Below are positions 26,986 through 35,718 of a stretch of 64,000 nucleotides of DNA, piece after piece. The DNA comes from Pyrinomonadaceae bacterium. Lineage in GTDB: Bacteria; Acidobacteriota; Blastocatellia; Pyrinomonadales; Pyrinomonadaceae. Every line of letters starts with the position of its first letter. Positions within the stretch are counted from its first letter, which is position 1. The DNA lies in NCBI GenBank assembly GCA_028284415.1, contig JANQRU010000004.1, forward strand, positions 1,488,001-1,552,000, in the 5' to 3' direction. The position numbers and the translations under genes are program-made. The notes below the pieces were generated by a model. That model did no database searches. It saw only the letters and a program-made list of their open reading frames with translations, and was not told the DNA's origin.

Positions 26986-28959
26986 ATGAGTGAAAATATA
27001 GAAAAAACAGAACAAATGGCGGGTGACGTAAACTTGCCGTCATCGCAGAAGATTTATGTTGAGACGAATGGCAATACGGTTAATGAAAATGGGCATAATT
27101 TGAGAGTTCCATTTCGGGAGATTGCTTTGTCGCCGTCTAAGAATATGGACGACGAATTGGAGGAGAATCCGCCAGTTCGGGTTTATGATACGAGTGGAGT
27201 TTGGGCTGATCCGAAAGTTAAATGCGATGTGCGGGAAGGTTTGCCGACACTTCGACGTGATTGGATTTTGAAGCGTGGTGATGTTGAAGAATATGAAGGA
27301 CGCGAAGTTCAACCGCAGGATAATGGTTATTTGACGAAAGGGGCGGAAGACATTGCACGAATAAAAGAGACTGGAAAATTGGAAGAATTTCCGGGGTTGA
27401 AACGTGCTCCGCTTCGTGCGAAATCGGGTAAGAACGTAACGCAGATGCACTATGCGAAGAAAGGCATCGTTACACCTGAGATGGAATATATTGCGATTCG
27501 TGAAAACCTCGGTCGGCAAATTGCATTTGAAGCTATGCAGAAAGCGGAAGGTGCGGAGAGAGATTCGCTTTATCATCAGCATAAGGGAGAATCTTTTGGA
27601 GCGAGCGTTCCTGAATTCGTTACGCCAGAGTTTGTGCGTGATGAGGTGGCGAGAGGTCGGGCGATAATTCCTGCGAATATCAATCATCCCGAAACCGAAC
27701 CGATGGCGATTGGGCGAAATTTTCTTGTGAAGATAAACGCCAATATCGGAAATTCGGCGATTGCTTCTTCAATTGAAGAAGAGGTCGAAAAAATGCGTTG
27801 GGCGACTCTTTGGGGAGCGGATACGGTGATGGATCTCTCGACGGGCAAAAACATACACGCCACACGCGAATGGATTTTGCGAAATTCACCCGTGCCGATT
27901 GGAACTGTGCCGATCTATCAAGCACTCGAAAAAGTAAACGGCAAGGCGGAGGATTTAACTTGGGAGATTTACCGCGATACTTTGATAGAACAAGCCGAGC
28001 AAGGCGTTGATTATTTTACAATTCACGCTGGAGTTCGTCTTCCCTTTATTCCAATGACGGCGAAACGTACGACGGGAATTGTTTCTCGTGGTGGTTCGAT
28101 TATGGCGAAATGGTGTTTGGCACATCACAAAGAGAGTTTTCTTTACACGAAATTCAGAGAGATTTGCGAGATTATGGCGACTTATGATGTTTCGTTTTCT
28201 CTCGGTGATGGGTTGCGTCCGGGTTCGATTGCGGATGCGAATGATCAGGCTCAATTTGCTGAATTAGATACGCTTGGCGAACTTACAAAAATCGCTTGGG
28301 AAATGGATTGCCAGACAATGATTGAAGGTCCGGGTCACGTTCCGATGCACCTCGTCAAAGAGAATATGGACAAGCAACTTGAAACTTGCGACGAAGCACC
28401 TTTTTACACGCTTGGACCATTAACAACCGACATCGCACCCGGTTATGACCACATCACTTCCGGCATCGGTGCGGCAATGATTGGTTGGTTCGGCTGTGCG
28501 ATGCTCTGCTACGTTACACCAAAAGAACATCTCGGTTTGCCAAACAAACAAGACGTAAAAGAAGGCGTTATCACATACAAACTTGCCGCTCACGCCGCAG
28601 ATTTAGCAAAAGGTCATCCCGCCGCACAATATCGTGACAACGCACTCTCGAAGGCACGTTTTGAATTCCGTTGGGAAGACCAATTCAATCTCGGTTTAGA
28701 CCCCGAAAAAGCCAAAGAATTCCACGACGAAACCCTTCCGGCAGAAGGAGCAAAACTCGCCCACTTCTGCTCAATGTGCGGACCGCATTTCTGTTCGATG
28801 AAAATCACACAAGACGTTCGTGAATACGCCAACGAGCAAGACGTTGAAGAAGAAAAGGCTCTAGCAGTCGGAATGGCTGAAAAGGCGAAGGAATTTACCG
28901 AAAAGGGTTCGGAAATTTATCACGGAAATAAACCCGAAGGTGCAGACGAGCATCATTGA
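26986..28959 (+). CDS. thiC: Phosphomethylpyrimidine synthase ThiC
   Basis: 657 residues, full length. ThiC turns aminoimidazole ribotide into hydroxymethylpyrimidine phosphate for thiamine synthesis using S-adenosylmethionine radicals and a [4Fe-4S] cluster. The cluster motif C-x2-C-x4-C is visible in CSMCGPHFC near residue 595. Other blocks are the N-terminal RVYDTSGVWADP and the TDIAPGYDHITSGIGAAMIGWFG segment. It is controlled by the TPP riboswitch just upstream. The last 30 codons (GMAEKAKEFTEKG...DEHH) recur in decayed form three times further downstream, see findings. Confidence 0.98.
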   Translation: MSENIEKTEQMAGDVNLPSSQKIYVETNGNTVNENGHNLRVPFREIALSPSKNMDDELEENPPVRVYDTSGVWADPKVKCDVREGLPTLRRDWILKRGDVEEYEGREVQPQDNGYLTKGAEDIARIKETGKLEEFPGLKRAPLRAKSGKNVTQMHYAKKGIVTPEMEYIAIRENLGRQIAFEAMQKAEGAERDSLYHQHKGESFGASVPEFVTPEFVRDEVARGRAIIPANINHPETEPMAIGRNFLVKINANIGNSAIASSIEEEVEKMRWATLWGADTVMDLSTGKNIHATREWILRNSPVPIGTVPIYQALEKVNGKAEDLTWEIYRDTLIEQAEQGVDYFTIHAGVRLPFIPMTAKRTTGIVSRGGSIMAKWCLAHHKESFLYTKFREICEIMATYDVSFSLGDGLRPGSIADANDQAQFAELDTLGELTKIAWEMDCQTMIEGPGHVPMHLVKENMDKQLETCDEAPFYTLGPLTTDIAPGYDHITSGIGAAMIGWFGCAMLCYVTPKEHLGLPNKQDVKEGVITYKLAAHAADLAKGHPAAQYRDNALSKARFEFRWEDQFNLGLDPEKAKEFHDETLPAEGAKLAHFCSMCGPHFCSMKITQDVREYANEQDVEEEKALAVGMAEKAKEFTEKGSEIYHGNKPEGADEHH

Positions 28960-29025
28960 TTTCATTTTTCTTTGTAATATTTTGTCACATTTTGACATTA
29001 CATTGTTGAGGAAATTTCTAGAAAA

Positions 29026-32000
29026 ATGATTACTAATACTAAATATCTTGGCGACCTATTATCTCCGCTTGATTTTGATAATAAGAGTTTTGAAGAAAGG
29101 CAAAGTCACATTGAAGATTTGCTTTGCCGTTCGCTTAATATGAGAACGGTTGTTGCTTTTATCGGTTCAGGGGCATCTTTCCCAATAGGCTATCCAATGT
29201 GGGGACAATTTGCTAAAGACACTTTCAAATTATTAAAAATCACTTTATCCACAACAAACGGAGAATATGAGAATTGTCTTGCGATCAAACTCCGCAATAA
29301 TCCGCTTAGTGAACACGAAGAAGCAGTAATAGTGGACTTTGCTAGTGTGTTTTTCCCACAGTCAGTCAAAGATGGGAAACTGCTAGAAGACCTCGCAACT
29401 GAAATTAAAACGAGGGTTGAAAAATACATTGAATTTCTGGGAAAGCGGATTAAAAAAAATTATCCTGACGAAAATGACGAAAAAGATTTGAAAACTTTGG
29501 CTACTAATTATAATGAGGAAAAAATACAAGACAAAATTAATCAGTTTTCCGCTTATTTAGATAAAAAGAAAAGCAAAGAAATTGATTTTCAGTCGTTGTT
29601 TAGTGAATGCGAGAGACTTATTTGCTCAAAAGAGAGGTGGGAGGAACTTAGGCACGCAAAATTTTTTCGTGTAATCGTTGAAAGCTATTTTCAGATAAAA
29701 AGGTATTACACAACTTTGGATAATAAAGACAAACTGAAAGCTAAAGAATGGAATCCCTATTTGGCTCTGCTTGATCTGCCTATCAATAAGTTTGCGACAT
29801 TTAATTATGATCTGGAGATTGAAAGAGCTTTGCTTTTTGGCAACAACAAACAGAAAGATAAAATTTATGCTGATAAAACTAAAGGCGAACAAATAATTAA
29901 GTATGTGAATAGTTCAAACAAAATCAGGAGTTTTTCACAGAAGAATAAGTACTGCGAAGATTTAGTTGGTTTTTCCGTCTCAGGGTTTGAGCCAAAGGTA
30001 AATTCCGTATTTCACTGTCACGGTAGAATAGATGACACAATTAACTGTGTTGTAAGCGAAGAAGATTATCAAAAATGGTATTTACAAGAAGATGACGAAA
30101 AATATACACCGTTCAGACAAACACTCGACATAATTTTAGAGTCTAATCCGATTCTTTTTATGGGGTTTAGCCTAAGTGATTCTGATTTTATGAGAATCTT
30201 ACGCTCAATATCGGCTAATCGGACAGGAGATAAGACCAGAAAACCGTTATTTTGTCTATTGTATGTCCGAGATAGTGATTTCGAAAACAATGAGAGTTGT
30301 GTCAATGCTGAAAATGCAAAATGGACAGATGAAAAAGAACTTGAAGACGAATGCACAATGCTCTATATCAAATATGGTCTTCATGTTATTTTGGTAGAGG
30401 AAGAAAAACTAAACTCAAAAGACGACAAGCCAATAGAGCCTACCTGCCATAAACTAATGGAGCTTGAAGAAAAGGCAAAAGAATGGTGGCAAGGGGTGAC
30501 TAAAAAACCTAAGTTTAGAAAATTTGAAATTAATGCTGACAAACCCTATTTTCACTATGAGTTTGACGAAGGTGCAGTCGAAATAATCAAATTTGATGAT
30601 AACCTATATAAGGAATTAGACAAGGCGTTAGGCTTTGAAAATACACCTGAAACACCAGGCAGCCATCCAGAAAAAGATGACGAGTTTCCTGAACTGAAGC
30701 CTCCTGAACTAAAGAAATATTTTGCTCCAAATTTAGCAGTTGTTGTTGGTGATGGTGGAACTGGGAAATCGTGGAGTGTTCAACAATACCTGAAATCCAA
30801 AATTCGTGACGGAAAGATTAGTGAACAAAAAACCTTCTTTTGGAGTTCATACTATACAAATGACGTTCTGACGGGAATAGATAGGTTGGTAGATTTTTTT
30901 ACTGAAGGTAAGGAAGATAAAGCAGATAACCCAGAGTGGGTCGACGAAATCTTATTAAATAAAGACAATCCTAAATACGGAAAATTTGCATTTCTAAAAC
31001 TCATTATTGATAGAAATGAGGATGCAATAATTGTCTTCGATGGCATAGAAAAACTTCTTACACCAAATACAGATAATACTGAGGGTGAATCAATAAGCCC
31101 GGAAGTTAGAGAGTTTTTCAAAATACTGACAAACCGTAAGGTAAAAAGCAAAATAATATTAACTACAAGGCTTTTCCCAAGCGATATTCTTTTTAATATT
31201 GATGAAATTATTAATAATCAAACAGATTATGATGAAAAACGTCGCTTTCTTGAGTTAAAAAACAACCAAATAAAAAGAGGAAAAATTTTATCAGCACCTC
31301 GATGCTGGGCTGAATTATTAAATAAAGGAGAATACCTAAAAGTAAATTCTGACTACGTTAAAAGCATCGGAAATAACCTTTTTTATTCAAATTTCTGCTC
31401 GCTTTTTGACGGGCATATTTTCGCTATTGCGATAATGAGAGGTATTTTAGAGGGATTAGACAAGAATAAAATAGGGACAAAACTACTATTAGATAATATC
31501 ATTAAGACCCCTATGGAACGACGGGTTAATGAAGTCATCAAAGAGGCAATCGCACATTTAGACACACCCGACAGTAAAATTTATAAGAGATTTGTAGAAC
31601 GAATTTCCCTATTTATGCATCCGGTTAGAAAAGAAGTTGCAGAAATCTGCTTCAACCAAATTTCTGAGAATGAACGAATTTCGCGTTCATTAACGACTGA
31701 CGACGTTTTAAATATATTGGTTAAAAAAAGTCTGGTTCAAGTAGTAAAAATTAATGATGACACTAGGTATGTTGTACATCCCTTGATAAGAAGTTATGTT
31801 TTCGAGACACTACATGAATCAAAATTTGCCTCACTTCCGGGGTTACAGCTTCCGGGTGTAACTTCAAGCAAAGAAGTTGTTGACCCAGGAAACAAAATCG
31901 GTCAAGAAGTCTCATTAAAATTATTTGAAAAATTGTGTAAAGAAGCAGAGGAGAAGGTAAGCGAAACGAAACCTATTTCAAATGAGAATTATCTGATAGC

Positions 32001-35614: not shown

Positions 35615-35625
35615 ACCTTAAAATT

Positions 35626-35718
35626 GGAATGATAGAAAAGACAAAAGAGTTTACTGAGAAGGGTTGGGAAATCTATCACAGGAATTTGACTGAAGATGTC
35701 GATGCAAATCATCATTGA
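35626..35718 (+). repeat. thiC 3'-end remnant, copy 4
   Basis: Thirty-one codons beginning G-M-I-E-K-T-K-E-F-T-E-K-G-W-E-I-Y-H and ending N-H-H-stop, against the last 30 codons of thiC (28870-28959). Fifteen of the first eighteen residues agree, while the second half has drifted and gained one codon. Its ATG would give a 29-residue peptide, probably not a functional gene. It is more diverged than copy 3, so the copies have different ages or donors. Confidence 0.88.

Follow-up and report, generated by a model that had tools for sequence, protein, structure and literature searches.

Small gene blocks inserted repeatedly behind the 3' end of thiC in Pyrinomonadaceae

Based on sequence searches in a 64,000-nucleotide window of a Pyrinomonadaceae genome (contig JANQRU010000004.1, positions 1,488,001 to 1,552,000) and in related genomes, we find that small blocks of genes have been inserted repeatedly right behind the thiamine biosynthesis gene thiC, and that the decayed copies of the thiC 3' end lying between the blocks (hereafter tails) record these successive insertions. 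Such thiC arrays are real and recurrent; they are a variant of a known, mechanistically unsolved process, in which the recurrent target and an unexpectedly tight joint are new. An earlier note on the window had reported three decayed copies of the thiC 3' end downstream of the gene, on the same strand and each closing an unrelated cargo block, and sequence searches confirmed this observation. The features of the locus, in window coordinates, are as follows.

26883-26994, plus strand: thiamine pyrophosphate (TPP) riboswitch, 5' of thiC (Rfam RF00059, 74.7 bits)
26986-28959, plus strand: thiC, its 3' end being the recurrent insertion site (Pfam ThiC_Rad_SAM and related genomes)
28861-28875, plus strand: thiC codons 626-630, the preferred joint, at which the left edges of many relatives' tails lie
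28960-33361, plus strand: block 1, a SIR2-TPR gene (29026-33114) and a DUF2200 5' fragment (33285-33357) (Pfam, PADLOC)
33362-33388, plus strand: tail copy 2, the final 8-9 codons of thiC (21/27 identical)
33389-34733, plus strand: block 2, an M19 dipeptidase gene (33534-34706) (Pfam)
34734-34782, plus strand: tail copy 3, the final 16 codons of thiC (39/48 matches)
34783-35625, plus strand: block 3, a VOC gene (34869-35222) and a DUF2200 gene (35261-35614) (Pfam)
about 35626-35718, plus strand: tail copy 4, about 30 final codons of thiC
35772-43792, plus strand: further genes (including DUF6624 and cNMP-binding), of uncertain membership in the array

When the genome was searched with its own thiC end, copy 3 was recovered at the DNA level (E 1.9e-7, the matches listed being thiC itself and copy 3 only) and copy 4 as a protein match to thiC codons 623-657 (E 4.8e-5), with its left edge at codon 629. 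Copy 2 is the weakest, its 21 identities in 27 being equalled nowhere in 20 Markov-simulated 64-kb windows; against the last 27 nt of thiC, copy 3 is the best downstream match (22), followed by copy 2 (21) and then by a next match of 16. Copies 2 and 4 each close a DUF2200 gene, intact in front of copy 4 and internally deleted in front of copy 2, where a 73-nt 5' fragment with 89% identity to positions 35253-35325 directly precedes the tail. Pfam bore out the SIR2, dipeptidase, VOC and DUF2200 genes named in the note, placed the dipeptidase in M19 and added TPR repeats, and returned no match for the STAND NTPase that had also been proposed.

thiC was searched for in 80 genomes of the family, 41 of the genus and 109 of the order, sets that overlap; G000 denotes the genome of the window and is included in the counts of 109. 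In the order search, C-terminal-only copies of thiC (starting at codon 599 or later) were found in 17 of the 109 genomes (G000, G028, G029, G032, G043, G052, G054, G060, G071, G086, G090, G096, G097, G099, G102, G108 and G111), contig-split pieces of thiC being left out of this count. The copy lies downstream of thiC, on the same contig and strand, in 14 of the 17, and on another contig in G029, G060 and G090. A profile search revealed weaker copies in additional genomes (e.g. G004, G065, G082 and G106), and the thiC-tail profile gave no match on the opposite strand at E<1e-3. Similarly, the first 60 loci yielded 29 secondary tblastn matches (<100 bits, E<10), 22 of them in thiC-bearing loci; 19 of these 22 are C-terminal, and all 19 are on the strand of thiC. 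At least two genomes of another family in the same class also have thiC tails, and their blocks hold what we take to be a toxin-antitoxin-like or a DNA-methylase-like gene. In G060, two tails surround a presumably PhzF-like gene on a contig that lacks thiC (locus L056, contig C33), and the complete thiC on another contig has no tail within the 17 kb examined. The final 10-12 codons of thiC are themselves highly variable in the family, with short forms ending near EIY and long forms in HH or EH, and repeated swapping of the gene end has perhaps produced this variability as a side effect.

In many genomes, thiC stands on one side of the blocks and a polysaccharide cluster on the other; in the window this cluster opens with an aminotransferase gene at 43793. 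Within the genus of the window, the distance from thiC to this aminotransferase gene is 218 bp in G001, 539 bp in G002, 778 bp in G006 and 14,834 bp in G000, and filled and empty sites coexist within genus g1 and within genus g9. Both things that the note had proposed looking for were thus found: cargo bounded by thiC tails that varies across genera, and species that have none. The median block size is 1,309 bp (37 blocks, weak tails counted), and 59 of the 66 block genes of at least 100 aa are oriented as thiC. Several cargo families are common to the arrays of different genera (DUF2200, VOC, SnoaL-like, RibD-like, AHSA1, Arr-like and beta-lactamase-fold). Fic and HicA domains occur in two arrays; most of the thiC cargo examined is of neither the restriction-modification nor the addiction type.

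The pair formed by G086 and G108 gives a before-and-after view of the site. In G086 a KilA-N gene and then a tail follow thiC. In G108 the thiC end is a different, short one, and between it and the same KilA-N gene stand a 72-aa gene (helix-turn-helix-like, a call that does not reach the Pfam cut-off) and a tail resembling the thiC end of G086; another tail lies behind the KilA-N gene. The stretch common to both is identical at 993 of 1,063 positions, whereas the two thiC genes are 85% identical overall. This high identity also spans thiC codons ~420-610, so that the exchange was wider than the block. In G106, thiC directly adjoins the two flanking genes that close the array of G108. The thiC end and the tail of G108 are plainly different, and the pair disfavours local duplication.

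The note had also read the tails as ends of different thiC alleles, and this stands in part. Among the 29 tails for which the genome's own thiC is known, 22 are matched better by the thiC of another species and 7 best by their own. Between gene and tail, 25 thiC tails show 328 synonymous and 488 nonsynonymous differences, a synonymous share of 0.40 against 0.20 for neutral change; the corresponding counts are 38 and 51 for lpdA and 54 and 75 for DUF2200. However, a constrained gene beside a decaying tail would alone give a share of about 0.33 by simple arithmetic, and protein-guided alignment favours synonymous changes; therefore only part of the excess supports different alleles. The clearest case is a tail of G131, with 16 synonymous and 4 nonsynonymous differences. 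Homologous exchange upstream of the array is seen in mosaic thiC genes and in a 152-nt identical tract (codons 559-609) between G043 and G108, which belong to different genera and whose thiC genes are 80% identical overall; within thiC, different genera share seven identical runs of 70 nt or longer, five of them at codons 559-615. For a given tail, the displaced end of the recipient can rarely be distinguished from an end carried in by the block.

The left edges of the tails are clustered. With 82 thiC genes as reference, left edges were assigned to 41 tails, of which 36 score at least 40; the edge test leaves out the 5 with lower scores, and another 5 fall outside codons 598-632. Of the remaining 31 edges, 22 lie within nine codons, compared with a simulated mean of 12.8 and a maximum of 21 in 20,000 simulations, although two joints are each common to two genomes (L040/L057 and L213/L214), so that not all edges are independent. 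Tails shorter than ~25 codons are also less readily detected, and the test is limited on that side. No score was given to tails truncated at contig ends (at the start of contig C1 in G090 and the second tail of G086). The main cluster lies at codons 622-631 and a smaller group at 598-608, while edges overall span codons 484-635, with long tails beginning at 484 and 503. At 19 joints (23 given, minus 3 without the anchor motif and 1 duplicate, with L215 among them mis-anchored), the three bases before codon 630 agree with thiC in 84-89% of cases and the bases next to them in about half, while agreement beyond 13 bases is at background. A 23-nt core is identical between the gene and its own tail in only 3 of the 16 tails compared.

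The note had treated thiC as a specific site of the kind that islands use, and this is not supported, as a like anatomy occurs at lpdA, DUF2200, lepA and other genes. In 7 of 18 loci of genus g9, one of the seven being weak, C-terminal copies of the DUF2200 gene lie 0.4-1.1 kb behind it; the loci were partly chosen because fragments had already been seen, and three of the copies share nearly one joint and are preceded by different sequence. Among 318 open reading frames (ORFs) sampled at intervals in G100, 6 have a downstream C-terminal fragment and none an upstream N-terminal one. Four of the six copies end no more than 7 nt short of the stop or run past it, and the targets include lpdA, LepA, a deoxyhypusine-synthase-like gene and a CofH/MqnC-like gene. 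In G000 and the window, 352 ORFs gave one C-terminal case (thiC) and one N-terminal case. lpdA tails lie within 1.5 kb downstream in 8 of 30 loci, and blocks that we take to be PIN-type from a sequence motif stand behind lpdA in 7 of 30, beginning 3 nt past the lpdA stop in 5 of those 7; lpdA in G093 and G110 has neither a tail match nor such a block. Some tails nearly equal their own gene (59/61 for lpdA in G014). The small blocks at the lpdA loci of genus g9 (L297-L326) differ by species, and several look like toxin-antitoxin pairs. Outside thiC, 3' ends hold no exclusivity: N-terminal fragments are about as common as C-terminal ones. In the fetched loci, upstream N-terminal fragments accompany 9 of 578 ORFs in g9 and 1 of 538 elsewhere, and C-terminal fragments in the same loci, with thiC set aside (one thiC-tail ORF excluded), number 7 and 1; a looser control of 660 ORFs gave 5 C-terminal and 10 N-terminal matches. 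Such mirror fragments fit a target-duplication process. In four g9 loci (L241, L242, L246 and L255), genes presumably for 2-oxoacid oxidoreductase subunits are accompanied by C-terminal fragments on their downstream side and N-terminal ones upstream, and these are possible mirror-image insertions. That the pattern recurs at a few other genes points to a general route by which these genomes would gain genes.

No integrase had been visible to the note, in agreement with our search, in which no tyrosine recombinase was found in the first 60 thiC loci (best E 0.006; 29 loci fetched later lie outside this test, and no systematic search was made for serine recombinases or transposases). No integron integrase was found in the same 60 loci, nor any above the curated cut-off in G000; 32 of the 80 family genomes have one above that cut-off. 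Two thiC ends, the only ones folded, gave z-scores of -1.2 to +1.8, nothing unusual (no attC model was used). We therefore rejected an integron reading on the two grounds of G000 lacking an integrase above the cut-off and the unremarkable folds. A Y1 (IS200-like) transposase stands directly behind a thiC end or tail, amid a dispersed hairpin repeat, in L041 (G043), L042 (G019) and L217 (G111); Y1 transposases were set aside as drivers, there being three cases only, among dispersed hairpins.

We give about even credence to a homology-anchored process with long target duplication and without an island integrase, in which blocks would be inserted repeatedly just behind the thiC stop and the last 30-60 codons of the gene would remain as direct repeats. 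Incoming DNA of a relative, carrying a thiC end and cargo, would pair with the 3' part of thiC, and homologous recombination would swap in the incoming end. The other end would be joined through short homology into the same gene end, mostly at codons 626-630 and less often around codon 600. The outcome would be a complete, often foreign, thiC end followed by the cargo and then by the old end as a tail, and the tails would then offer homology for the trading and stacking of blocks between species. An insertion that is homologous on one side and illegitimate on the other (PMC3240628) would give such a product in one step. Recombination at the thiC 3' end that leaves the old end behind, as the note proposed, is favoured by the G086/G108 pair, the variable cargo and the 152-nt tract; what is not supported is its island-like specificity for thiC. 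Several observations weigh against this homology-anchored process. Random short homology does not explain the tight joint, with 22 of 31 edges in nine codons, and the joining step is inferred. One genome, G043, takes part in all five of the identical runs near the 3' end, and the own gene is the best match for 2 of 8 lpdA tails and 3 of 6 DUF2200 tails, which shows no clear polarity. Moreover, Y1 transposase genes are present in three arrays, and what we take to be IS3-like ORFs in the arrays of G090 and G096.

As the site preference of the joint lacks an explanation, a trans-acting recombinase stays the main rival. A site-specific enzyme (Xer-like, integron-type or from a lost element) would insert small non-autonomous cassettes at a core in codons 626-630, like cis-mobilizable elements accreting at a gene 3' end. 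This is possible, though we lean against it: edges clustered far above uniform placement, the agreement that peaks before codon 630 and fades past 13 bases, the identical 23-nt cores of three tails and the integron integrases of 32 family genomes speak for it, but the 60 loci hold no tyrosine recombinase and G000 no integron integrase over cut-off, the edges near codon 600 and the tails from 484 and 503 misfit one core, the two folded tails have no unusual fold, and an integrase specific to thiC is made less likely by the like anatomy at unrelated genes. It is unlikely, in our judgement, that a circular DNA carrying a gene end and cargo integrated by a single homologous crossover, with the direct repeats allowing loop-out and renewed movement. 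A complete gene followed by cargo and a 5'-truncated gene end is indeed the product of a single crossover, shared units span from gene end to next tail, and exchange within thiC is visible; however, no circle or plasmid was seen, homologous recombination works poorly on repeats of 45-180 bp that diverge by 10-20%, and a fixed left edge with differing cargo needs a separate cause. Local tandem duplication of the gene end and its neighbours, followed by loss and decay, appears quite improbable. The seven tails closest to their own thiC, the two DUF2200-plus-tail units of the window and the lpdA tail of G014 speak for it, but it does not fit the 22 tails closer to another species' thiC, the plainly different end and tail of G108, or the synonymous-rich tail of G131.

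Returning to the homology-anchored process, a wider version of it is one that we hold tentatively and rather doubt. Housekeeping gene ends would be docking ports that need no integrase, and the thiC 3' end, under its TPP riboswitch, would act in an integron-like manner with its own coding tail as the recombination site; cassettes would swap the last 30-60 codons at the preferred joint, stack, and pass from genus to genus as a shared pool of genes for defence, toxin-antitoxin systems and small enzymes. Integrons likewise gather small single-gene blocks, mostly in one orientation, from a shared pool, at an entry beside a promoter-bearing gene. Unlike integrons, the thiC arrays have no integrase gene, each unit has the end of a coding gene as its repeat, at the 5' side, and the two folded ends show no unusual fold.

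A closer parallel is offered by the restriction-modification genes of Helicobacter pylori (Nobusato et al. 2000), for which insertion with long target duplication is described (PMC1643837, PMC3031569, PMC3874152). As described there, blocks stand between long, variable direct repeats of the target (on the order of 100 bp), both are missing from empty alleles, no transposase is needed, and addiction cargo is frequent. At thiC, long variable repeats likewise bound the blocks (17 of 109 genomes, edges at codons 484-635), and repeat and block are both missing from empty alleles (218 bp in G001 against 14,834 bp in G000), as they are at lpdA in G093 and G110. The thiC arrays differ from those of H. 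pylori in that one housekeeping-gene end is hit repeatedly, blocks stack, the joint prefers certain codons, most cargo is of other kinds than restriction-modification, and the tail often comes from another allele than the gene end. Among islands, the ssrA array of Dehalococcoides is the nearest analogue. There, tandem variable islands behind an essential gene are each bounded by a 3'-end repeat, a fixed 20 bp of the RNA gene; an integration module that includes a serine recombinase is present in 16 islands and absent from some (PMC3146451). In contrast, the gene at the thiC arrays codes for a protein, the repeats measure about 45-180 bp, the blocks are small, and no tyrosine recombinase was found in 60 loci. 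Gene-turnover hotspots between core genes are, to our knowledge, not defined by gene-end repeats. They too combine variable cargo with conserved flanks (PMC5635113), and exchange of the flanking gene is visible at thiC. A literature search found nothing on thiC as an insertion site.

Within the window, ThsA-type SIR2 models of PADLOC match part of the SIR2-TPR protein encoded in block 1, and its gene is likely a defence gene, judged from these matches. Block 1 is predicted to share the thiC transcript and would then lie under the TPP riboswitch. No thiC tail was recognised in the stretch that leads from tail copy 4 to the aminotransferase gene (35772-43792), and two of its gene families are also present in other arrays. 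Near thiC in L040, L212, L226 and others, Pfam identified a rifampin ADP-ribosyltransferase domain and beta-lactamase-fold proteins.

The detection of islands relies on integrases and RNA-gene targets, and blocks bounded by the tails of protein genes would escape it. The thiC tails form a fossil record of successive gains at one site, through which integrase-free gain becomes countable, and the preferred joint together with several target genes makes the transposase-free movement of restriction-modification and toxin-antitoxin genes testable in Pyrinomonadaceae. If thiC and the first blocks are transcribed together, newly acquired genes would also come under the control of thiamine status.

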